From: Phycisphaerae bacterium
Lineage (GTDB): Bacteria > Planctomycetota > Phycisphaerae > UBA1845 > UTPLA1
Direction: 5' to 3'
NCBI GenBank assembly: GCA_019636475.1
Contig: JAHBXN010000007.1
Coordinates: forward strand, 124,001-188,000
DNA length: 64,000 bases
The translations under genes and the position numbers were made by a program. Each line of letters begins with the position of its first letter. Positions within the stretch are counted from its first letter, which is position 1. A model generated the notes under the pieces. The model was not told the origin of the DNA. It was given only the letters and a program-made list of their open reading frames with translations, and searched no databases. This document shows positions 3,715 to 15,023 of this stretch, in pieces.

Positions 3715-4674
3715 TCACCCTGCGGCCCCAATCGGGCTTGCCTCGCCACTGCCGTACAACGATGATCCCGCGCCGCGATGCCTCCGGGCATCTTCCATAG
3801 CCGCCATCCCCCACAGATACTGTTCAGGGGCCAGCATCATTCCCTTCTCAAGCTCGCCAAGGACCCGCAACATGAACGAGTCGTCGGAATCGCTCGGCGC
3901 AATCGTGATTAGCTTGTGCACTCGCAAATGAAACTCGAACGCACCCGGGCCGCGCGGACACGTCACGACGGCTGCCGGCACGTCGAACCACCGGCACAGC
4001 CGCTCGATCGTCGGACGCGCCGCGAAGTGTCGGCCCATGAACCGAACTCGATGACCCCGACCGCCCGGCCGCTCGTTCTCCGCGACAATCATGACCGACT
4101 TTCGCTGCGCAAGCACATCCGGAAGAACTCGGGCGGCATCGCTCCGATCAATCAAACGTACGTGCGACAGTGACCGAATCTCCCGTTCCCAGATTCGAAT
4201 TTCGGGACGGCCACTCAAATCGGAAACCACTTCCAATCCGCCGAGCAGGTTCCCCAGCGCGCACGCCGCGGCGGCGATGTTCCCGTGATAGCCCACCACG
4301 ACGACACAACCGCGAGCGGAAACCGCTCGAAGGCGTTCCTCATCGCTCGACTCAATCCGGACAAACTCGCGCCAGCCTTGAGCGTCCAGCCGCTTCGCGA
4401 CAAATAGGCACTCGGCCCAGAATCTCGCGAAGTGTTCGTAGCTTTCTCGACTGATCCGAAGCGCTAGCTGGTTTGGATCGATGGCATTCGACCTTTCCTG
4501 ACATGCAACGGAAAACGCTTCGCCAAACGCCGAAAGGACTCGCTTCATGGCGCGCTCGCGTCCGGGAGGGTTCAGGTCGAATAAGCCTGTCCCAAGTCGT
4601 GCTGCGAACTTCGTAGCGACACGCGGACCCGCCAACCGAACCAACGGCGCGACCAGCCATCGAAGATACGCCAT
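3715..4674 (-). CDS. LpxL/HtrB-family lysophospholipid/lipid A acyltransferase
   Basis: A 319-aa membrane-associated acyltransferase of the lipid A late-acyltransferase (LpxL/HtrB) family, which transfers an acyl chain onto a lipid A precursor or related glycolipid at the inner membrane. The catalytic His lies in 'VVGYHGNIAAAACALG', equivalent to the HxGNWE block although the Trp and Glu are replaced. A later block, 'ENERPGGRGHRVRFMGRHF', corresponds to the D/NxRPG...F.G region, and 'MLAPEQYLWGM' to the PEQWxW motif, here without the following HRRW. These changes leave the exact acceptor uncertain. The ATG at 4674 is preferred over 4788 because it starts the usual membrane-anchor region (MAYLRWLVAPLVRLAG) and has GAGAG about 9 nt upstream. 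Confidence 0.75.
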   Translation of the reverse strand: MAYLRWLVAPLVRLAGPRVATKFAARLGTGLFDLNPPGRERAMKRVLSAFGEAFSVACQERSNAIDPNQLALRISRESYEHFARFWAECLFVAKRLDAQGWREFVRIESSDEERLRAVSARGCVVVVGYHGNIAAAACALGNLLGGLEVVSDLSGRPEIRIWEREIRSLSHVRLIDRSDAARVLPDVLAQRKSVMIVAENERPGGRGHRVRFMGRHFAARPTIERLCRWFDVPAAVVTCPRGPGAFEFHLRVHKLITIAPSDSDDSFMLRVLGELEKGMMLAPEQYLWGMAAMEDARRHRGAGSSLYGSGEASPIGAAG

Positions 4675-5266
4675 TCTGAGATCTCTCAAGCTCAATGTAT
4701 CGCCCCGCAGAACTGGCGGCCAACTGGTTGCCCGGCTGCGCAAGCCGTGTCCGTGTGTGCACGCGCACCCATTAATTATCGGCATCATCGCGCCAGATTC
4801 CCGTGATTCGGATCGGTGGATTTACCCCCGCTCACAGCCGTTTGCCGGGCGTAGCTCGGCCAATCCTTTTCCACGGCCCGCCGCTCCCGATTACGGCCGG
4901 CCGAAAGGTGCTCACCCACCCAGCCGACGAATATCGCCTGCCTCGGACGCGAATTATCGGGTCCCGTAACATATACTTACTGGAGCGCGCATTGCTAAAA
5001 TATCAGGATAAACCGGACTTTCCCCGAAGCCCGCACGCGAGCGACACGGAAATCCCCGTCCCGACCGACCGGGTCCGAACGCACACTCATGGGAAATCCG
5101 CTGATTGGCTCGAACACTCCGCCCGATTGAGTGATATCTATCGAGATGAAGACCAGAGCGGCTCAAAATTCGATTGAGATCCTTACCCCAATGTACCGAC
5201 CCAGATCCCCGCGGCGAACGGCGGCCGAAAAAAACATGCGGATCAGTTGACGGAGGCAACAAAACG
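4675..5266. other. Intergenic region between divergent lpxL-like and subtilase genes
   Basis: A 592-bp gap with no convincing gene. It must carry the promoters of both divergent genes. One minus-strand -35/-10 candidate is listed separately. The good ribosome binding site GGAGG (5252-5256) belongs to the subtilase gene. Open frames in this interval show no recognisable protein. Confidence 0.6.
4970..4998 (-). promoter_or_regulatory. Candidate sigma70-type promoter for the lpxL-like operon
   Basis: On the minus strand TTAGCA (4998-4993) and TATATG (4975-4970) are separated by 17 bp. Each hexamer matches the consensus at four of six positions. It would give a leader of about 290 nt before the lpxL-like start, which is long, so the call is tentative. 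Confidence 0.25.
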
Positions 5267-7675
5267 ATGATCACTGTCGGCATCGCCATCGCGATGCTTC
5301 TTTCATTCAGCGCACAGGTGGTGCCGCCGGCCATTTCGTCTGAAACCGTTCGCGATGAAACGCTCGGTTCAAACCCTCACGCGCTCTATCTCGCGGCCGG
5401 AAACGTGGATCTCGCCACCGCCCCGTCGCTTCTCGACAATCTCAATACCCGATTCGACCCGAATAAGTACTACGTCTTGCAGCTTGATGGCCCCATGACG
5501 CGCGACCGTCGGGCCGCGCTCGCGGAAACCGGCCTTGAACTCCTCGACTACGTTCCGATGAACGCATACATCGTCCGCGGCGTCACCATCAACGCCGCGG
5601 CACTCCGTGGGCTTTCGTTCGTTCGATGGCTCGGCGAATACGAGCGGCAGTGGCGAATCTCGCCGGAAATTCCAAAGGCAAAAGCTTATCAGGACGCAGA
5701 CAGGCGTGCGATGAACGATCGCGGCGAAAAGCGGCTTTCGGTCAGCCTCATGCGCGGCGCCGATCTGACTCAGGCGGCCAGAATCATCGAAACCCAGGCC
5801 CTCGCGATCAACGAAGTGCTTCCCACACCGGATCGCTGCAAGCTCGAATTCGACATCGCATCGGACAGAATTGATGGCCTGGCCGATATTCCCGACGTGC
5901 TCTTTATCGCCGAGACGCCCGAAGGCGAACCCAGAAACTCGATGACCACATGGGTCATTCAGAGCGATATCCCCGGCTCGACACCCCTCTGGAACGCCGG
6001 ACTGCATGGAGAAGATCAGATCATCGGCCTCATCGATTGGGGGCTCGACGAATCCCACTGTGCGTTTGACGATCTCGTAGCGCCAGGACCGGCGCATCGC
6101 AAGCTGCTGGCCTACGTCGTGGCGAATGGCCAGGTCATTCCCGGTGGATTCGGATACCACGGCACCCATGCCGGCTGCACACTCGCCGGTGACGATCTAT
6201 CCGGAACCTCCGCCAATTTCAGAGGCATGGCGTACAAATCCAGAATCGTCATGCAGCACTATGCCGGACTCGTCACGTCGACCAATGTCGATGAGCGCCT
6301 CCAGTTCGCATACGACCTTGGCGCGCGCATTCATTCCAACAGTTGGGGAAGTTCGACCGACACAACCTACAACGCGTGGTGCGCCGATATTGACCAGTTC
6401 GCGCACGATTATGAGGAGAATCTCGTCCTGGTGGCGATCATGAACGGCGGATCAGCAAGCCTGCCCGGCTCCATCCGCTCACCTGAAAACGCCAAAAACT
6501 GTCTCGCCGTCGCCGCCGCCAATGAACCGCCGAACCAGAATAACCACGGAAGCGGCGCACGTGGACCCACCACCGACGGCCGACAGAAACCGGAAGTCTG
6601 GGTCTCGGGCTGCCCCACCTCCGCAAACGTCAACACCGCATGCTCCGAGATAGACCGGACCTGCGCCACGTCCTGGGCGACACCCGCGATGTCCGGTTTT
6701 GCCTCGCTCACTCGACAGTACTTTATCGATGGGTTCTATCCCGGTGGCGCCGCGAATGTCCTCGATGCTTTCGAGCCGTCCGGCGCACTCATCAAGGCGG
6801 TCATTCTCAATTCGGCCGTCGACATGTCCGGATTTGCGGGATACCTGGGCACCCACGAAGGCTGGGGTCGCGCAATCATGGACCGAGCCCTCTATTTTGC
6901 CGGCGACGATCGGAAACTCATTGTGCACGATGTCCGCCATGCCGAGGGCCTTTCAACCGGCGAAACGCAGAGATTCTATGTCAACGTCATGTCATCATCC
7001 GAGCGGCTGAAGGTCACGCTCGTATGGTCCGACGCCCCCGCGTCTGTCGCGGCCGCTTTCACCCCTGTTAACAATCTGAATCTGGTCGTCATCGACCCGT
7101 CCGAGGTGTCGTACACGGGAAACAGCTTCGAGGGCATCGAATCCGTGCCCGGGGGACCAGCCGATTCATTGAATAACACGGAACAGGTCCACCTGTCGAA
7201 TCCCACCACCGGCGTCTGGGCGATCGACGTCGTCGGAGCCGCCGTCAATCTCGGCACACAGGGCTTCGCGCTCGCCGTCACGGGCGATGTCCAGCAAAGC
7301 ATCTGCACCAGGGGAGACGTCAACGGCGACGGGCTCGTGGACGGCGCTGATATTGCCGCATTCGTCTCGGTGCTGTTGAACGGCGGCTCCTTCGTTGAAC
7401 GATGCGCCGCAGATATCGACGATTCCGGAGTTGTTGACCAACTTGATGTCGGTCCGTTCGCGGCGTTACTGCTCGGTGTCACCTATTGCCCGCGAATCAA
7501 GGGCGATATGAACAACGACGGACTCGTTAACGCAGGCGACGTCCAGGGCTTTACCGATGTGCTTACCAACGGCGGAACTCCCGACGAAATCTGCGCGGCC
7601 GATTTCGACTATTCAACCACCGCAGATCTCGACGACCTCAGTGCCTTCGTATCGCTATTGATTGAGATGGAATAA
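5267..7675 (+). CDS. Secreted S8 (subtilisin-like) serine protease with two dockerin-type repeats
   Basis: An 802-aa exported protease. The start at 5267 has GGAGG 10 nt upstream and opens a signal peptide (MITVGIAIAMLLSFSAQVVPP). An N-terminal pro-region (~40-220) precedes the catalytic domain, with the triad in 'IGLIDWGLDE' (Asp, ~residue 256), 'GYHGTHAGCTLAGDD' (His, ~300) and 'TCATSWATPAMSG' (Ser, ~467). A beta-sandwich domain (~570-680; 'LKVTLVWSDAPAS') resembles those that follow many subtilases. The C-terminus carries two Ca-binding dockerin/EF-hand-like units, 'GDVNGDGLVDGADIAAF' and 'GDMNNDGLVNAGDVQGF', each followed by a second half-repeat (ADIDDSGVVDQLD, ADFDYSTTADLDD). The Ser, His and Asp are all present, so activity is likely. 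Dockerin repeats imply attachment to a cohesin-like partner or to the cell surface; that partner is not in the window. Confidence 0.92.
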   Translation: MITVGIAIAMLLSFSAQVVPPAISSETVRDETLGSNPHALYLAAGNVDLATAPSLLDNLNTRFDPNKYYVLQLDGPMTRDRRAALAETGLELLDYVPMNAYIVRGVTINAAALRGLSFVRWLGEYERQWRISPEIPKAKAYQDADRRAMNDRGEKRLSVSLMRGADLTQAARIIETQALAINEVLPTPDRCKLEFDIASDRIDGLADIPDVLFIAETPEGEPRNSMTTWVIQSDIPGSTPLWNAGLHGEDQIIGLIDWGLDESHCAFDDLVAPGPAHRKLLAYVVANGQVIPGGFGYHGTHAGCTLAGDDLSGTSANFRGMAYKSRIVMQHYAGLVTSTNVDERLQFAYDLGARIHSNSWGSSTDTTYNAWCADIDQFAHDYEENLVLVAIMNGGSASLPGSIRSPENAKNCLAVAAANEPPNQNNHGSGARGPTTDGRQKPEVWVSGCPTSANVNTACSEIDRTCATSWATPAMSGFASLTRQYFIDGFYPGGAANVLDAFEPSGALIKAVILNSAVDMSGFAGYLGTHEGWGRAIMDRALYFAGDDRKLIVHDVRHAEGLSTGETQRFYVNVMSSSERLKVTLVWSDAPASVAAAFTPVNNLNLVVIDPSEVSYTGNSFEGIESVPGGPADSLNNTEQVHLSNPTTGVWAIDVVGAAVNLGTQGFALAVTGDVQQSICTRGDVNGDGLVDGADIAAFVSVLLNGGSFVERCAADIDDSGVVDQLDVGPFAALLLGVTYCPRIKGDMNNDGLVNAGDVQGFTDVLTNGGTPDEICAADFDYSTTADLDDLSAFVSLLIEME

Positions 7676-8173
7676 ACACGAAACGTCGGCAGCCGTTCGC
7701 ACGCATCTAGCTGTTTCGCAATCACCGAGGTCCATTCCGATCTCAATGTGAATTTCGCGAAATGCAGTCCGGTAACAATCACGCTGGCGCGGAGCGGCTT
7801 AGTGCGCGATTCCATGCACAATTCCTCTCTGATTCGCGCGCGCTTTCACAAAGCCACATCGCATCGAAGCTTGTCAATGCGTGTCCGAACACGTTACACA
7901 ATCCGCGCGAAGCAGCCACGTCGCAGTCTCTCGTGAATATCGGACACCACCACCAAATCGATCAGTATGCTCGTTGATTTCCATTACTCAGAGTGGTATT
8001 TTCGATCCTTGTAATGCAACGAAAGAAGCACTCTTTATGTGTGCGGCTTCCTTCGCGTCCGTTGGGACTGCATTGCGTCGGACCCTATCAGTCGCGAGTT
8101 CGGGCGTGCATCGCCGAATCGATCGACACACGTCCGTGCCAGACAATCGTCGAATCTGCCAAAAGAGGTTTAC
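7676..8173. other. Intergenic region upstream of the DUF2203 gene
   Basis: A 498-bp stretch with no supported gene. It contains one possible promoter (7974-8002) and the ribosome binding site of the next gene (AAAAGAGG, 8161-8168). I see no terminator hairpin after the subtilase stop. Confidence 0.6.
7974..8002 (+). promoter_or_regulatory. Candidate sigma70-type promoter upstream of the DUF2203 gene
   Basis: TTGATT (7974-7979) and TATTTT (7997-8002) with 17-bp spacing, in an AT-richer island of an otherwise GC-rich gap. A transcript from here would have a leader of about 165 nt. Confidence 0.3.
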
Positions 8174-8635
8174 ATGGAAGCATTCGGCACCACAGCGATC
8201 GCCCGGAAAAGCCGCCACCTACGCGGCCGCAAAATATTCACACTCGCCCAGGCCAATCGAACACTGCCGCTCGTGTCTCGAATCGTCGCCGACATCGTCG
8301 CAAGGCATAAGCAGATCTGCCGCATCGAAGAGCGGTGCCACGCCGATGACCACGATCATTCGATGGAACAGCTCGATCGGTTGCGCGATCAATATGCCGA
8401 CGAGCTCGATGCCCTGCAGGACCTCATCGAGGAACTCGAGCAGATCGGATGCCAGTTAAAGGATTGGGAGCGAGGCGTCGTCGACTATCTCGCCTTCATC
8501 AACGGCAGGCCCGTCGAGTTCTGCTGGCGGCTGGGCGAGCCGCGCATCGCTCACTGGCACGAGATGGATTCAGGTTTTCGTGGCCGGCAGAAGCTCGATC
8601 AGTGCATGGAAGCCGACGCGCCCGCGGGTTCCTGA
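8174..8635 (+). CDS. DUF2203 family protein
   Basis: A 153-aa cytosolic protein of the DUF2203 family, whose function is unknown. Family landmarks are 'FTLAQANRTLPLVSRIVADIV' near residue 25, a long helical, highly charged middle, 'LEQIGCQLKDWERGVVDYLA' and 'GRPVEFCWRLGEPRIAHWHEMDSGFRGRQ'. The terminal C-W-x-x-GE-x-x-I-x-x-WH block is strongly conserved in the family and may bind a ligand, but no reaction is established. The ATG at 8174 is chosen because AAAAGAGG lies 5-12 nt upstream. It is followed, convergently, by a thioesterase gene. Confidence 0.85.
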   Translation: MEAFGTTAIARKSRHLRGRKIFTLAQANRTLPLVSRIVADIVARHKQICRIEERCHADDHDHSMEQLDRLRDQYADELDALQDLIEELEQIGCQLKDWERGVVDYLAFINGRPVEFCWRLGEPRIAHWHEMDSGFRGRQKLDQCMEADAPAGS

Positions 8636-8732
8636 AATCGCCGAACTGCGCCATCCACGGATGACGCCGCATTTCTCGCGAGAACCGCGGTTTTCAACCA
8701 CCTGCCGATTCGCCAACAGGAGTCGCCACGGA

Positions 8733-9122
8733 TCACTGCTCCCCGAGCAGCCGTTGCAGGACGGTTCGCGGCATCGTTTTCTGATCGGTCCGACCGGTCG
8801 CAATCAGCCGATCGCCAACAAATGCCCGCGTCTCGCACACCAGTTCGCGAACCGATACCGAGCTGGCCTTCGCCACCACGCGCACCATGGATCCGACTGG
8901 CGCGGGCGCGTGATGATCGCAGCTCACATGCGTGCCGACCCCTTCTTCATGGGCCTCGAGAAAACCCGCCAGCACGAGGCGACCGGCGATTTCCATATAC
9001 TGCACGACCGTCCATGTCGCACAGACGCGGTGCACGACCACGCCGTCGAACGCAGGACACATGTCCTCTGTCACGATGAATTGCGTCTCTCGTTCCAGTC
9101 CGACAACCAAGCCCGGTTTCAT
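8733..9122 (-). CDS. Hotdog-fold thioesterase, fluoroacetyl-CoA-thioesterase-like
   Basis: A 129-aa single hotdog-domain protein resembling the FlK-like acyl-CoA thioesterase group. The start 'MKPGLVVGLERETQFIVTEDM' and the block 'CATWTVVQYMEIAGRLVLAGFL' supply the Thr and Glu that act with the His in 'GVGTHVSCDHHAPAPVG', equivalent to the FlK catalytic Thr/Glu/His set. The group hydrolyses small acyl-CoA thioesters; fluoroacetyl-CoA is the substrate of only one characterised member, so the substrate here is unknown. It lies 59 bp upstream of a convergent DUF2203 gene and downstream of an FMN-binding protein gene on the same strand. Confidence 0.75.
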   Translation of the reverse strand: MKPGLVVGLERETQFIVTEDMCPAFDGVVVHRVCATWTVVQYMEIAGRLVLAGFLEAHEEGVGTHVSCDHHAPAPVGSMVRVVAKASSVSVRELVCETRAFVGDRLIATGRTDQKTMPRTVLQRLLGEQ

Positions 9123-9181: not shown

Positions 9182-9811
9182 TCACGGTTGCACCCAGTGT
9201 CCGCTCGTGTCGCTCGCCGTATAAGTCAATCGCGCCCGCCGGTGTCCCGTCAGCCCCAGTTGCAGCCAATCCATCTCGTCAATCGTCGTGCGGATGACCG
9301 CAAAATTCCGTCGAGCCGATTCGCGATCAACGGCCAGATGCGCCGCCGTTCTCGCCAACCCGCTGACGCCGCCCGGCGATGCTATCAACTCGCCGGGCGC
9401 GGAGGCCGACGCGTAATTCATCACACTCAGGCCGTCCACGGCCTCCCATGCCGCATCCACTATTTCGCCGCCCGTCTCGATTACCGCCCCGCCGAATGCT
9501 CGAATCTGAACGAGCCGCGTCGGATCATAGAACAACCACGCCGCCCGTTCGAAGTGCCTAAGTTGCGTCACCTTGGCCGCCCGAACGTCGGAATAGCAGC
9601 TCAATTCGCGCCGCCCGATGTCAACCGCCCGCAACACAACCATCCGCACGTCCGGCGAGGACGGTTCATCGGCGCCGGACCGGCCGGATGAAATCGTCGA
9701 AAAAGCCGCAAATCGAAAAGGATGCCCATCGGCCGTGACGGCTTCGGCGAGTTCTCGCCAGATGGAATGATGAAGCTGGGTCAGCGAATCGGGCATCATG
9801 AATGCCAGCAT
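9182..9811 (-). CDS. Pyridoxamine 5'-phosphate oxidase-like FMN-binding protein
   Basis: About 209 aa with the split-barrel fold of the PNPOx/flavin-binding family. Evidence is 'SPDVRMVVLRAVD' (family R-x-V-x-L-R strand), 'LSCYSDVRAAKVTQLRHFERAAWLFYDP' (equivalent to the TD-x-R-S-x-K-x-x-L FMN phosphate region), and 'QIRAFGGAVIE', with a C-terminal 'WLQLGLTGHRRARLTY'. It is closest in pattern to the Alr4036-type pyridoxamine oxidase-like proteins, not true PdxH, since the PLP-binding C-terminal RxxxR is not obvious. The frame opens to 9901; I prefer the ATG at 9811 (or 9799), because the upstream part is Arg-rich and overlaps the sigma factor gene. Partner and substrate are unknown. Confidence 0.7.
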   Translation of the reverse strand: MLAFMMPDSLTQLHHSIWRELAEAVTADGHPFRFAAFSTISSGRSGADEPSSPDVRMVVLRAVDIGRRELSCYSDVRAAKVTQLRHFERAAWLFYDPTRLVQIRAFGGAVIETGGEIVDAAWEAVDGLSVMNYASASAPGELIASPGGVSGLARTAAHLAVDRESARRNFAVIRTTIDEMDWLQLGLTGHRRARLTYTASDTSGHWVQP

Positions 9812-9897
9812 ATCGCGCCGAGGCAATCCTTGCCGCGTCGAGATGGACGATTCCCGGCGGTATCCCGACCGATTGTGAATCTGACAAAAGGCCCGGT

Positions 9898-10527
9898 TCA
9901 TTCCTCGTGGGTGAGGCCCTTCTTCTCCGCCTCTTCACGAAGTTGCTTCAATGCCCGATGGCAGATCATGTGTATCGATCCGATGGACCGGTCCAGTTGT
10001 TTGGCGACTGCCGCGACCGGAAGCCCCTCGATGAATCGCATCTGAATCACCTCGCGATAGTGCTCCGGCAGATTCGCCAGGCAATCCTCTATCGCGTTGA
10101 CCGCCTCCGTCTTGCGAACGACCCGACTCGGGGTCGTACCGCTAGACATGATCCGGGCCATCAGATCAACATAAGTGGTCTGATTCCCCGAAGCCGCCGT
10201 CTGCTTCACTTCCCGACGCACGTCGCGCCGTTCCGCGCGAAGCGCTCGATGTTCGTCAATTAACTTGCGATCGAGGATCGCATTCAGCCAGCGCAGAAAC
10301 GAGTCCGGGCCTTGATAGGTAAACTGGTTTAGCGCTCGAAACGCCTCCAGATAAACCTGCTGGAGAATGTCCTCCGCCTCAATCTTCGAGCGCATGACAT
10401 GATCCATCTGCCGCTGAAGCCGCGCCCGCAGCCGGGGATGATACAAAACCAGAAGGCGCTGGGCGGCCGATTCATCGCCTTTTCGGGCCTCATCGATCAG
10501 AATCTGCGTTTCCTTCGCATCAGACAC
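9898..10527 (-). CDS. ECF-type RNA polymerase sigma factor
   Basis: A 209-aa sigma-70 family factor with only regions 2 and 4. Region 2 is ~residues 12-95 ('LVLYHPRLRARLQRQM', 'EAEDILQQVYLEAFRAL', 'FLRWLNAILDRKLIDEHR') and region 4 is ~145-205 ('LANLPEHYREVIQMRFIEGLPVAAVA' then 'RSIGSIHMICHRALKQLR', the promoter -35 helix-turn-helix). A GTG start at 10527 has GGAGG about 11 nt upstream. No anti-sigma factor with a zinc or transmembrane signature is adjacent. Instead a Ser/Thr kinase gene is divergent, a pairing seen in planctomycete ECF groups, so regulation by phosphorylation is a reasonable inference. Confidence 0.9.
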   Translation of the reverse strand: MSDAKETQILIDEARKGDESAAQRLLVLYHPRLRARLQRQMDHVMRSKIEAEDILQQVYLEAFRALNQFTYQGPDSFLRWLNAILDRKLIDEHRALRAERRDVRREVKQTAASGNQTTYVDLMARIMSSGTTPSRVVRKTEAVNAIEDCLANLPEHYREVIQMRFIEGLPVAAVAKQLDRSIGSIHMICHRALKQLREEAEKKGLTHEE

Positions 10528-10800
10528 GATTTACGTCGCCTCCGCGCCGCCGGTCGGTCCCTGCAAACGCCATCAGAATCACCGATTCCGGTATCAATGT
10601 CACAATAACCGTTCTTGAGTGTAGAATACACGGAGAGAATGACCGCGCATCGGTCGAATCCTCGTCTTGTTTTGTAATCGGACGATGCCAATTTTGTGCT
10701 AACCTAATATTGAGGCATTGAATTGGGACCAACGAGAGGGTTGCGACGTACTAAATCCCGGCCACTGGCCGACAGTCTCCGCCACGAGGAGCGAGAACCG

Positions 10801-10941
10801 ATGAACCCTCGCGAATCCGGTCAGCCGATTTCGCCGGAGGCGCACATGGTACGAATTTCCGGAACTCCTTTTCCAGCAACGACGTACGGATTCTTGACAA
10901 CAGGGAGCAGCCAGAACCGCGCAAACTCGCGATACGAATGA
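10801..10941 (+). CDS. Small leader ORF overlapping the kinase start
   Basis: A 46-codon reading frame with a strong Shine-Dalgarno (GAGGAG, 10786-10791) spaced 9 nt from its ATG. Its TGA overlaps the ATG of the kinase gene (ATGA at 10938-10941). The kinase start itself has no visible ribosome binding site, so translation of this ORF would explain how ribosomes reach it. The peptide (MNPRESGQPISPEAHMVRIS...) has no recognised domain, signal or membrane segment. It may be a real small protein, a coupling leader only, or an accident; I favour coupling. Confidence 0.4.
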   Translation: MNPRESGQPISPEAHMVRISGTPFPATTYGFLTTGSSQNRANSRYE

Positions 10942-12734
10942 CGTCCGAAAACAACAATTTGCAGCATTCCGGTCAGGATGATGGTGCGGAAGTCATTGGC
11001 GCCCTCATCAACGAGTTCTTCGACCGGCGCGAAGGCGGGGAACCGCTCACCGAGGAGCGTTTCCTTGCGGAACATGCCGAACATGCGGCGGTGCTTCGGG
11101 AGCATTTCGAGAGCATCAGACTCCTGCCGGCTTCCGGGTCTTCCGAAGCTCCCAAAAAACTTCCCGGAGACGAGACCGTCGACCTGCGCGGAAGTTCCGC
11201 GACCGCCGAACCGCCGGACTCACAGCATTTTCCACGAATCGACGGCTACCAGATCAGTCGCCTCATCGGCCGCGGCGGAATGGGCATCGTGTACAAGGCG
11301 GTGCAGATCAGCACCAAGCGTCAGGTCGCGCTAAAGGTTTTACTCGAAGGTCCGCTTGCATCCGACCAGTCTCGTAAACGATTTGAACGCGAGATCGAAG
11401 TCGCCGCGCAGCTGCGCCACAGCAACATCATTCCGATCTATGACAGCGGGAAGTGTGAAGGCCGGATGTACTACGCCATGGCGTACATCAAGGGCGTCTC
11501 ACTGACCGACTTTCTCACCGCCAATCGCCTGTCATTCAATGAGCGCCTGACACTTTTCGCCAAAATCTGCGGCGCGGTTCGTCATGCCCATCAGCGCGGT
11601 GTCATGCACCGCGACTTGAAGCCGACCAATATCCTCGTCGACGCCGAGGGCGAGCCGCATGTGCTGGATTTCGGTCTCGCGAAGATCAGTGCACTCTCCG
11701 ATCTTTCGATGTCCGTCTCCGCTCAGATTGTCGGAACGCCCGCATACATGTCGCCCGAACAGGCCGCCGGCGATCCGGCCGGCGTCGATACCCGAACGGA
11801 TATCTATTCACTGGGCGTCGTGCTCTACGAAATGATGGTCGGAAAAATGCCGTACGACACGGCGGTTTCCATGGGCCGCGTGCTTGACAACATCGCGCAC
11901 GCCGAGCCGACGCCGCCCCACCTCGTGGACCGAAAGGTCACTGTGGAATTGTCGGCCATCATGATGAAGGCGCTGGAGAAGAGCAAGGACCGGCGCTACC
12001 AGTCGATCGATATCCTGCTCTCGGACATCGACAACTATCTCAAAGGCAATCCGATCTCGGTTCGTCCGCCGACCATCATTTACTTCATGCGAAAGACCAT
12101 CTGGCGACATCGTGCGGCGCTGGGGTCGATCGCGGCCGTTCTGATGGTCGCAGCGTCGGTTGTGATCTTCATTCGAGGTTATTCGAAAGACCTCCGCGCT
12201 CAAAATCAGAATCTCGAACAGCAGAAGCGCGAGATCGCCCAGGAGCGCGAGCGTGTCGTGCGGGAAAAGCAGGAACTGGAGCTGCAGCGCGACAGCAAAC
12301 AGGAGGAACTGAACCGCGTCTATGCCTGGCTCAATAGTCAGGATCCGGTGATTGCGGAGAACTTGAAGTCGTTCGCGACGGGCGTCACAAATCCTTACCG
12401 GCTGCCCGAACTGATCGCGCAGGGCGCGGCTCGCGGCCTGACCCCCACACCGTCCAAGCCAATCAGCAAACTTGACGAGATCGATGCTCAGGCGACGATC
12501 GTTTTCGAAGCGCCGTCGTTTTCAACCAAGCCGGCGCCAACGGAAGAGACGACCGACTTTCTCAGCCGAATCGGGAAAGTCGCTGAAGACGCGCTGACGA
12601 AGGGAGTGCCCTCCGTCATCAATCGATCAACCTCGCAGCCGGCGCCAACGTCACAGCCGTCAAAGAAAGTGGAACCGCTGTCCGCCCTCTCTCAAATCGC
12701 TGAGGAGAAGCCGCTGCCGTCCGGTTCGCTTTAG
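10938..12734 (+). CDS. Serine/threonine protein kinase with one membrane anchor
   Basis: A 598-aa Hanks-type kinase. The N-terminal ~100 residues form a planctomycete-style acidic segment. The kinase domain (~107-375) holds the glycine loop 'IGRGGMGIVYKA', the Lys in 'VALKVLLEG', the catalytic 'MHRDLKPTN', 'LDFGLAK', and 'GTPAYMSPEQ' in the activation segment. A single transmembrane helix follows (~395-415, 'ALGSIAAVLMVAASVVIFI'), then a charged coiled coil (~420-475, rich in Q/E/R) and a Pro/Thr-rich tail, probably extracytoplasmic. All catalytic residues are intact. It is divergent from an ECF sigma gene and ends 4 bp from a convergent gene for a CX4CH protein. Its ATG overlaps the stop of a small leader ORF, suggesting coupled translation. 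Confidence 0.95.
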   Translation: MTSENNNLQHSGQDDGAEVIGALINEFFDRREGGEPLTEERFLAEHAEHAAVLREHFESIRLLPASGSSEAPKKLPGDETVDLRGSSATAEPPDSQHFPRIDGYQISRLIGRGGMGIVYKAVQISTKRQVALKVLLEGPLASDQSRKRFEREIEVAAQLRHSNIIPIYDSGKCEGRMYYAMAYIKGVSLTDFLTANRLSFNERLTLFAKICGAVRHAHQRGVMHRDLKPTNILVDAEGEPHVLDFGLAKISALSDLSMSVSAQIVGTPAYMSPEQAAGDPAGVDTRTDIYSLGVVLYEMMVGKMPYDTAVSMGRVLDNIAHAEPTPPHLVDRKVTVELSAIMMKALEKSKDRRYQSIDILLSDIDNYLKGNPISVRPPTIIYFMRKTIWRHRAALGSIAAVLMVAASVVIFIRGYSKDLRAQNQNLEQQKREIAQERERVVREKQELELQRDSKQEELNRVYAWLNSQDPVIAENLKSFATGVTNPYRLPELIAQGAARGLTPTPSKPISKLDEIDAQATIVFEAPSFSTKPAPTEETTDFLSRIGKVAEDALTKGVPSVINRSTSQPAPTSQPSKKVEPLSALSQIAEEKPLPSGSL

Positions 12735-12738
12735 CCCC

Positions 12739-13716
12739 TCAATTCGAATCTGCAGGCTCGGTCGCGTCCGCATCGCCGCCATCATCATCGCTCGGCATTG
12801 TCGTCGTTTCGATGAGCCTAACGCCATAATCCTCGGACGGATGCTTCAGCGATGCGATCCATGCCAGAATCCGCGTATAGAGCTTGTGTTTGCGCGACGG
12901 GAAGAGCGGCTTGATGTCTGCCGTGCCGGGATGCCGATACTCAGGCAGCACGGCATTACGCGGAAGAAGATAAGTCAGAATGAGCGAATTCTCGGGCTGG
13001 CTTCGATCGATCATCCGTCTCTTATCGACGCGGAGATCGTTGAGAATGAGGAAGTTCGAATACACGGACAGCGTCGTGCGCTTCGGATCATTAAGAAATG
13101 CGAATCCAGGCGCGCTGCGATTCGTGCTCGTATGACAGCCTGTCGTTGCGCAGCCCCGCAGCACATGCGGAAGCACATTCTTTCGGAATTCAACGAACAC
13201 CTCCGGATCGCTGGTAATGCGAACCTTGTCGGCGTAGGCGGCTCCTTTGTATTTGGCGATCGTGTGCAGCTTCTGAGGCGGCGTCATCTTCAGGAAATTC
13301 CGTCGGTCGCGGTCCTCGCGAAAATTCGGGTCTCCCTCCATTGAAAGCAGAAACTCATCAATGACGTCACGCGAGATCCGCACTGTGACACGGTCCGGTT
13401 CCGTCATCGAGGGTTTTCGCATCCCGCGAAGTTCCATGTATCGAATGCGGCTGACCTGCGCGTAGGTCAGCGCCTTGTCCGGCCCGGTTGCGGAATCATC
13501 CCCTGCACCAGTCGCTTCGCCGCCCCCATCCGCCGGTTCGGATGTCGGCGGAGCCGGCAACGTCCCTTCGACATGTCCCGGTGTCGCGATGGTCGTCCCA
13601 TGGGAATGGGTCCGATCGCTGAAAGAGTGGATGTGATCAGATGCAAGCCCGAAGGCCGCTGCCAAAAGGCCCGTACCCGCGAGCAGTCGAATGGCAATGC
13701 CCGAACCGTCAATCAT
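12739..13716 (-). CDS. Exported protein with a CX4CH motif (possible c-type heme site)
   Basis: A 325-aa protein with an N-terminal signal or anchor (IAIRLLAGTGLLAAAFGLA), then a His/Pro/Gly-rich low-complexity stretch (~28-78), and a folded region from ~80. Near residue 190 it reads 'VLPHVLRGCATTGCHTSTNRS', a C-x4-C-H element after 'NVLPHVLRG'. This resembles planctomycete cytochrome-like domains in which 'lp.l...C...CH' introduces a heme site, but the spacing is four rather than the usual two, so heme attachment is inferred. The ATG at 13716 has GAGG 7 nt upstream. It converges on the Ser/Thr kinase gene with a 4-bp gap. Function unknown; periplasmic redox or binding roles are possible. Confidence 0.7.
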   Translation of the reverse strand: MIDGSGIAIRLLAGTGLLAAAFGLASDHIHSFSDRTHSHGTTIATPGHVEGTLPAPPTSEPADGGGEATGAGDDSATGPDKALTYAQVSRIRYMELRGMRKPSMTEPDRVTVRISRDVIDEFLLSMEGDPNFREDRDRRNFLKMTPPQKLHTIAKYKGAAYADKVRITSDPEVFVEFRKNVLPHVLRGCATTGCHTSTNRSAPGFAFLNDPKRTTLSVYSNFLILNDLRVDKRRMIDRSQPENSLILTYLLPRNAVLPEYRHPGTADIKPLFPSRKHKLYTRILAWIASLKHPSEDYGVRLIETTTMPSDDDGGDADATEPADSN

Positions 13717-13979: not shown

Positions 13980-14450
13980 GTGGAAAACACCCTTATCATT
14001 CTCAAACCCGACGCCCTCCAGCGCGGCGTGGCCGGACGAATCATCACCCGCTTCGAGGAGAAGGGCTTTCAGATTCTTGCATTGAAGGCCATGCAGATCT
14101 CCAGGGAACTCGCGGAGAGACACTACGGCGTCCACAAGTCCAAACCATTTTACCCGCGACTTCTGCAGTACATCACGAGCAGCCCGGTCGTCGTCCTCGT
14201 CTTGCGCGCGAACAATGCCATTGCAGTTGCACGAAAAATGATGGGCGCCACATTCGGCAGCAATGCCGAGCCAGGCACCATCCGCGGCGACTTCGGCCTG
14301 TCAAACAGCTTCAATCTCATCCACGGATCCGACTCGCCCGAGGCCGCCGCATTCGAGATTGGACTGTACTTCAAGCCTGACGAATTGCTCGAATATCCCC
14401 GCGCGGTTGAGAAGTGGGTTTACGACTACAGCGGCGACAAGCCGGAATAG
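13980..14450 (+). CDS. ndk: Nucleoside diphosphate kinase
   Basis: A 156-aa cytosolic enzyme that transfers the gamma-phosphate from ATP to other nucleoside diphosphates through a phosphohistidine. It shows the full family pattern: 'TLIILKPDALQRG', 'RFEEKGFQILALK', 'HYGVHKSKPFYP', 'SSPVVVLVL', 'TIRGDFGLSNSFNLIHGSDSPE' with the catalytic His in N-L-I-H-G-S-D, and the conserved AAFEIGLYF end. The start is a GTG at 13980 with AAGAAGGA 9 nt upstream; upstream in-frame ATGs would add an unrelated 113-residue extension. A promoter is visible 65 bp before. Length is normal. Confidence 0.97.
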   Translation: MENTLIILKPDALQRGVAGRIITRFEEKGFQILALKAMQISRELAERHYGVHKSKPFYPRLLQYITSSPVVVLVLRANNAIAVARKMMGATFGSNAEPGTIRGDFGLSNSFNLIHGSDSPEAAAFEIGLYFKPDELLEYPRAVEKWVYDYSGDKPE

Positions 14451-14489
14451 TCCACGTCCGCGACAATCAATTCACGAAAATCGCAAGTC

Positions 14490-14515
14490 AGCGCCGCGAC
14501 CTGGTATTCGGCGCT
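14490..14515 (+). terminator. Weak hairpin downstream of ndk
   Basis: Perfect 7-bp arms AGCGCCG/CGGCGCT with a 12-nt loop, 40 bp after the ndk stop and before a convergent gene. There is no T-run, so termination is uncertain. Confidence 0.25.
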
Positions 14516-14585
14516 TCCACGGCAGGTGCGCGCGCCGGGACGGGCCGCTGTTGGGGCGGAGCCGGCGTCCGCATTCGGTGAAATT

Positions 14586-15023
14586 TCAGGAGGCTTTCGC
14601 GGGCTGAAGGCCCTGAAGTTTTTCCAGCGCGGAAAGATTCCGACGATAGTTCTGCTGGATTGTGGAAATCAGCGCGTCCGCATCGCGATTGCCGCTGGTG
14701 CCCGCAGCCGATTCGTACACCGAAATCAGGCGGCGCAGATCGGCGAGCACCTCAGGCATCAGGTGGGACAATCTGACGTAGTGCATTCCACCCGTCACCG
14801 TCGAGTAACGAGGGGGAATCGGCGCTCCGCGCAGATTCAGGATCATCTCAGATAGTTCGCGCCGATGCTGCTGAGCGTCTCGAAGCAAACGCGAAATCTG
14901 ACTCCGGTCGTCGGCCGTCAACATGCTCACATACGGATCGACCTGCTCCAGTCGCGAAATGACACTCTCATACTCCGCAAGGAGCAGCCTGTTGAGCACG
15001 TTCACGGATTGATCGTTTGCCAT
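14586..15023 (-). CDS. Small all-helical protein of unknown function (ferritin-like fold possible)
   Basis: A 145-aa soluble protein, not recognised with certainty. It is predicted nearly all helical, with helix-like stretches 'SVNVLNRLLLAEYESVISRLEQV', 'RSQISRLLRDAQQHRRELSEMI', 'VRLSHLMPEVLADLRRLISVYES' and 'ISTIQQNYRRNLSALEKL'. The spacing and the E-x-x-x/H-x-x-E-like positions (AEYES, QQHRREL) resemble a ferritin-like or DUF2383-type four-helix bundle, but a metal site cannot be proved by eye. The gene begins 8 bp after the nuoN stop and on the same strand, so it is probably the last gene of the complex I operon. Confidence 0.65.
   Translation of the reverse strand: MANDQSVNVLNRLLLAEYESVISRLEQVDPYVSMLTADDRSQISRLLRDAQQHRRELSEMILNLRGAPIPPRYSTVTGGMHYVRLSHLMPEVLADLRRLISVYESAAGTSGNRDADALISTIQQNYRRNLSALEKLQGLQPAKAS

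Follow-up and report, generated by a model that had tools for sequence, protein, structure and literature searches.

A conserved locus of one planctomycete family places a kinase-paired ECF sigma factor beside an exported cytochrome-like protein and may serve heme-based sensing

Introduction

Some ECF sigma factors are encoded beside a Ser/Thr kinase gene with no adjacent anti-sigma gene, as in the ECF43 pairs EcfP/PknT of Vibrio and EcfK/PknS of Xanthomonas (PMC8999054). According to the parts of that paper drawn on here, ECF43 members are without the acidic DAED motif, and it is phosphorylation at that place that activates them; other STPK-linked ECF groups keep a DAED-like motif, may work differently and await characterisation. 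Replacement of the motif by phosphorylation is extended to ECF59 and the old ECF60 in the cited portion of PMC8103513. In extracytoplasmic sensing, covalently bound heme is described for the heme Cache domains (DUF3365) (PMC12889525, in excerpt) and for the Geobacter chemotaxis domains GSU0582 and GSU0935, which are periplasmic c-heme sensors (PMC3460858, in excerpt). Searches of the open-access literature found no combination of a cytochrome with an ECF sigma factor and a kinase, a weak negative because exact phrases were demanded, and found no planctomycete work naming CXXXXCH.

The locus described here comprises three genes, designated SIG, STK and EXP, which encode an ECF sigma factor, a Ser/Thr kinase and an exported cytochrome-like protein, respectively. 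Like the ECF43 pairs, as presented in the cited parts of PMC8999054, SIG has a Ser/Thr kinase gene as its neighbour and no anti-sigma gene next to it. Unlike them, SIG is acidic in region 2.2 (16 of 16 sequences), where the ECF43 motif is replaced and phosphorylation occurs, and it is accompanied by an exported cytochrome-like partner, none being mentioned for ECF43 in those parts. The acidic region 2.2 and the adjoining kinase gene, and these features alone, liken SIG to the DAED-keeping STPK-linked groups of the same source. The periplasmic c-heme sensors, in the excerpts cited (PMC12889525, PMC3460858), provide a precedent for covalent heme outside the cytoplasm, the heme of EXP being predicted. 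Their folds are Cache or PAS, and the Cache family has CXXCH and is often fused to a transducer, whereas EXP is cytochrome-like and separately encoded, next to an ECF-kinase pair.

Results

The window, the whole 64,000-nucleotide stretch of DNA that was analysed, lies on contig C7 of the source genome (G000; 4.4 Mb, 95% complete). It contains SIG (9898-10527, minus strand; 209 amino acids, GTG start), assigned to the planctomycete type of ECF sigma factor from its domains and EAED motif, STK (10938-12734, plus strand; 598 amino acids), assigned from its Pkinase domain, and EXP (12739-13716, minus strand; 325 amino acids), assigned from its motif, export signal and profile likeness. All three genes of the original prediction are real and in the places given for them, and the arrangement it described is borne out: SIG and STK are divergent, 410 bp apart, and STK and EXP are convergent with a 4-bp gap (12735-12738). 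The absence of an anti-sigma factor, also part of that prediction, agrees with a Pfam scan of the PPOX-family gene and six flanking genes (3715-9122 and 13986-15023), which found no anti-sigma family beside SIG; the gene at 14586-15023 matched no Pfam family and the remaining flanking genes belong to other families.

The PPOX-family gene (9182-9901, minus strand; Pyridox_oxase_2, 5.8e-9) follows SIG, its longest frame overlapping the end of SIG by 4 bp, and a PPOX relative likewise adjoins SIG in genome G016. An exported subtilase with a dockerin type I domain is encoded at 5174-7675 (plus strand; Peptidase_S8 1.6e-24, Dockerin_1 6.7e-7) and a small protein resembling the fluoroacetyl-CoA thioesterase FlK (5.4e-24) at 8733-9122 (minus strand).

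Regions 2 and 4 are both present in SIG (Sigma70_r2, 1.5e-8; Sigma70_r4_2, 2.1e-12) and its best NCBIfam model is TIGR02984 ('Sig-70_plancto1'), at 152.8 bits, below the cut-off of 183.75. STK consists of a short helical N-terminal region, a Pkinase domain (residues 104-355; 8.6e-49), one predicted transmembrane stretch (residues 394-412, 12117-12173 on the plus strand; a single 19-residue hydropathy peak) and a coiled-coil, low-complexity tail, and it retains VALK, HRDLKP and DFG. The tail is poorly conserved and TSQPA-rich, and the Pfam scan found no sensor domain in it. The N-terminal region was considered as a hidden anti-sigma domain and rejected: it has three helices (residues 14-61), yet its best PDB match had an E of 3.7. 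As a candidate for a general ECF-linked module, its profile matched too few places to be informative, one or two per genome in three genomes. Alignment A7 included eight of 11 named loci, with L105 omitted as being like L106, L110 as cut before the kinase start and L111 as without a kinase match.

Sigma-kinase neighbours are common in these genomes. Sigma region-2 matches, counts of which include non-ECF factors, start within 2 kb of a kinase match in 9 of 30 cases in G000, 12 of 38 in G001 and 8 of 28 in G012, against expectations of 0.73, 0.93 and 0.59, respectively. Among the matches listed, SIG and STK are divergent neighbours in all 16 family genomes that show both; in G004 the contig ends before SIG. 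Adjacency to a kinase without a neighbouring anti-sigma gene, by which STPK-linked ECFs are recognised, was found for SIG (adjacency in 16 of 16 genomes, the anti-sigma scan covering the window flanks). The pair fits a kinase-paired ECF of a known kind, as the original prediction had proposed from the linkage of some ECF groups to Ser/Thr kinases.

Phosphosites in the sigma factor, to which the original prediction had pointed, gave a divided result. Region 2.2 carries an acidic [ED]xED motif in all 16 sequences (EAED in the window's SIG) and has no invariant Ser/Thr, which leaves the ECF43 form unsupported; because SIG keeps this motif, an ECF43-type phospho-switch appears unlikely. Elsewhere in SIG, the Ser/Thr positions invariant in the 16 sequences (T7, S76, T132, S134, S/T181 and S184) are candidate phosphosites, and SIG may be controlled by another phospho-route.

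The SIG-STK intergenic region contains an element conserved across the family, TTGTAAT-N21-TAACCT (10672-10705, plus strand), oriented toward STK. All 16 intergenic regions have TT[GC]TAAT in one and the same orientation (resampled mean 0.41, maximum 3), and in 14 of them TAnnnT comes 21-22 bases later (resampled mean 0.008, maximum 1). Though it points toward STK, the box is 134-150 bp from the start of SIG in 13 of the 16 genomes. The element may be an STK promoter or activator site, or may serve both genes, and SIG is a candidate for the factor that reads it. The genome-wide pattern TTGTAATN{20,22}TANNNT gave 69 matches in 17 genomes, versus 34 for the reversed control, with the SIG-STK site itself accounting for 11 of the 69. 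No copy was found near EXP, and no promoter motif was seen by eye in 17 regions upstream of EXP.

Gene order was compared across 17 genomes of the family (12 genera), each with one EXP match, and 24 further genomes of the order, 41 in all. EXP was found in 13 of these 24 (30 of 41 overall), and sigma factors and kinases were searched for in the 30 EXP-bearing genomes, the counts being those among the matches listed. The named relatives with EXP are MAGs labelled Phycisphaerae, Phycisphaerales, Planctomycetaceae, Planctomycetota or uncultured planctomycete. In 14 of the 17 family genomes STK faces EXP, either directly or with one gene between, and EXP identity across these joined loci is ~40-59%. 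In G003 and G008 all three genes are kept, with STK and EXP on different contigs and several kb from the contig ends, and in G005 STK and the EXP cassette each lie at a contig end, which fits adjacency without showing it. The expectation that the three genes co-occur, with separation in close relatives counting against a unit, therefore held for SIG-STK in 16 of 16 genomes and for STK with EXP in 14 of 17, failed in two and was cut by a contig break in one.

In a tree of SIG, STK and EXP, midpoint-rooted and built from these same genes (weak nodes 0.13, 0.46, 0.68 and 0.76), G008 falls within a group of joined-locus genomes (support 0.975) and G003 is sister to G009 and G011, in both of which the locus is joined (0.997 and 1.0). 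Since the tree places both among joined-locus genomes, the two separations look secondary on these sequences. By comparison, ten other genes from the sides of the window, searched at E 1e-5 in the regions of the other 16 genomes, were not found beside the locus, except PPOX in G016; weak protease matches (34 and 43% identity) lie several kb off in two regions, and contig ends make the G004, G005 and G009 regions shorter than the others. No SIG- or STK-like match was found in any of the 13 order-level EXP regions, which lie outside the family.

Two further genes accompany EXP in most relatives. G4 (206-276 amino acids as called), on the EXP strand and with conserved GHSRR and FETG motifs, fills the STK-EXP space in 11 of the 17 family genomes and directly follows EXP in 13 (the 11 together with G005 and G008); its profile found no match in G000, G002, G003 and G013. 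SML (93-124 amino acids, starts trimmed) is divergent from EXP in 14 of the 17 and was found in 37 of the 41 genomes searched, with no match in G000, G004, G022 and G023. Neither family had a match above cut-off in Pfam or NCBIfam, and G4 was rejected as a relative of a known PDB sequence (the best match, RecA at E 0.0026, had no single stretch that passed). Of the 13 order-level EXP regions, seven have SML facing EXP and four have a G4 relative following it. Because G000 has no match to G4 or SML, the 4-bp STK-EXP gap is probably derived; compared at the sequence level, the older gene order was probably SIG< >STK <G4 <EXP SML>, of which the triplet in the window would be a reduced form. The absent matches in G000 may also be due to contigs missing from the assembly or to extreme divergence.

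By eye, ispE-like and spoVG-like genes, absent from the window locus, lie beyond EXP/SML in eight family regions (L062, L063, L069, L072, L074, L076, L077 and L079), the spoVG-like gene having an added zinc-ribbon-like stretch.

No Pfam family passed its cut-off for EXP, and NCBIfam gave it no match. A single 19-residue hydropathy peak, starting at residue 7, is the predicted export signal. Only seven columns are invariant in an alignment of 30 sequences (E95, C189, C194, H195, H262, P263 and W286). Three of these form the CX4CH motif (CATTGCH, residues 189-195; 13132-13152, minus strand), which ends in CHG in 18 of the 30, and two form the His-Pro at residues 262-263 (12928-12933, minus strand), a candidate distal heme ligand. 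The C-terminal part aligns with PSCyt1 (PF07635) in hhalign (local score 27.0, P 3e-4), a score reached by none of 60 column shuffles (maximum 19.8); the control scores were 11.6 for the reversed domain, 9.0 for SML and 9.9 for G4. The hhalign probability was 38.6% local and 10% global (controls 0.06-0.23%), with a PSCyt1 template of two sequences only, from G006 and G002.

The match is collinear over 86 columns, sharing the blocks C...CH, S-LL and a final WI. EXP differs from PSCyt1 in having CX4CH for CXXCH and an invariant His-Pro, and in not being recognised by Pfam: the PF07635 model matched neither EXP nor any other protein of G000. By eye, the HP stands at the place of the PSCyt1 MPP, although the printed alignments do not set H262 exactly opposite that Met. 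The cytochrome c assembly family PF01578 is present in all 17 family genomes. As CX4CH and the later His-Pro are kept in 30 of 30 sequences and there is a weak likeness to the planctomycete cytochrome c domain, EXP is probably a heme-c protein; we infer a bis-histidine heme with H262 as the putative second axial ligand.

In the AlphaFold model of EXP, residues 111-190 and 211-300 are predicted with confidence (block means 72-96) and the CX4CH loop is predicted poorly (46 over 191-200). A fold search with this model gave no PDB match (E 4.9 for the best Foldseek match; a single VIA row, with Z 2.4 across 46 residues), and EXP was rejected as a relative of a known PDB sequence (best E 0.54, none convincing). 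The structure alignment (A5) comprises ten of 11 named loci, L106 being omitted as a copy of L105. By eye, among the EXP relatives (L065, L081, L083, L087, L088, L091 and L092), several are extended at the N-terminus by a stretch bearing a 'DGR.L.GD' pattern, and in many of the order-level ones a TPR-like stretch precedes the conserved part; in L087 the sole family match was TPR_2, below its cut-off.

Discussion

The best explanation, advanced tentatively and at somewhat less than an even chance, is a two-module signalling locus conserved in one planctomycete family, in which heme-based sensing outside the cytoplasm would feed the STK-SIG pair. The first module would be the divergent ECF sigma factor and membrane-anchored kinase, without an adjacent anti-sigma gene, as indicated by domains and synteny. 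The second would be the exported c-type cytochrome-like protein, with the observed CX4CH motif as predicted heme site and a histidine as putative second axial ligand, accompanied in most relatives by G4, proposed to be a membrane protein, which follows EXP, and by the small protein SML, which faces it, both absent here. EXP, beyond the cytoplasmic membrane, would change with redox state or a bound gas, and the extracytoplasmic tail of STK, in which no sensor domain is recognised, would relay the change to the kinase. STK would then phosphorylate SIG, or something that holds SIG, in a manner not of the ECF43 kind, and SIG would drive its genes, perhaps including the STK gene. Heme sensing through STK is plausible.

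This sensor-type unit is rated about equal to a plain neighbourhood, in which SIG-STK would be a kinase-paired ECF switch of the ordinary sort, responding to a signal of its own, and EXP, with G4 and SML, an older electron-transfer or envelope cassette that has been a convergent neighbour since the family ancestor and is kept by inertia; the chance of that being so is likewise rather less than even. The synteny bears on both. EXP predates the link, and all 13 order-level regions are without a kinase or sigma match while SML faces EXP in seven and a G4 relative follows in four, which favours two modules and speaks against a unit. Within the family, inertia has to account for a locus that is joined in 14 of the family's 17 genomes (12 genera) at ~40-59% EXP identity, where none of the ten window-side genes is kept at the locus (PPOX in G016 excepted), and the sensor-type unit draws further on SIG-STK adjacency in 16 of 16 genomes and on EXP still lying beside STK in G000 though its older partners G4 and SML are gone. 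G003 and G008, which hold all three genes apart, count against a unit. In eight of the family regions compared, ispE, spoVG-like and further genes are also near the cassette; some gene order is thus retained here among genes with no evident common function, in favour of two modules.

The conserved intergenic element and the STK tail, in which no sensor domain was found, accord with a sensor-type unit. Against a unit, convergent genes have no common promoter and no copy of the element was found near EXP; the lack of a shared element upstream of EXP suits two modules. For a heme in EXP, which the sensor-type unit needs, there are the invariant C189, C194, H195, H262 and P263 (30 of 30), the PSCyt1 profile similarity (27.0, P 3e-4, 0 of 60 shuffles as high) and PF01578 in 17 of 17 genomes; to be set against these are the low hhalign probabilities with a two-sequence template, H262 not opposite the Met, and the lack of a fold match.

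A narrower form of sensing, in which EXP, as a heme-c protein, would be a detachable extracytoplasmic sensor of STK controlling SIG, redox state or gas binding outside the cytoplasm would reprogram transcription without an anti-sigma factor, and G4 would be an accessory adaptor dropped in some lineages, is considered unlikely.

Genes adjoining ECFs are often their targets, and EXP looks like a redox protein, so that EXP could be an effector of the pathway, such as an electron carrier whose amount is set by SIG, and not the sensor of that pathway. Upstream of EXP no copy of the SIG-STK element was found, which argues weakly against this, as the element may not be the real promoter consensus of SIG, and we regard an effector role as improbable.

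That the invariant Cys2His2 set binds zinc or forms a structural site in a protein without heme has the lowest standing, with only a slim chance of being correct: the four invariant residues could also be zinc ligands, CX4CH departs from the usual heme motif, the hhalign probability is weak and no fold matched, but the collinear PSCyt1 similarity over 86 columns (C...CH, S-LL and WI), the CHG in 18 of 30 sequences, the export signal and PF01578 in all 17 genomes stand against it.

For further work, the natural variants without G4 (G000, G002, G003 and G013) or without SML (G000; unfound also in G004) provide comparison material, and the conserved intergenic element is usable for a reporter. 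The locus offers a candidate input for a DAED-keeping kinase-linked ECF, in the form of a cytochrome-like family that is order-wide and uncharacterised and has an unusual, invariant putative heme motif.
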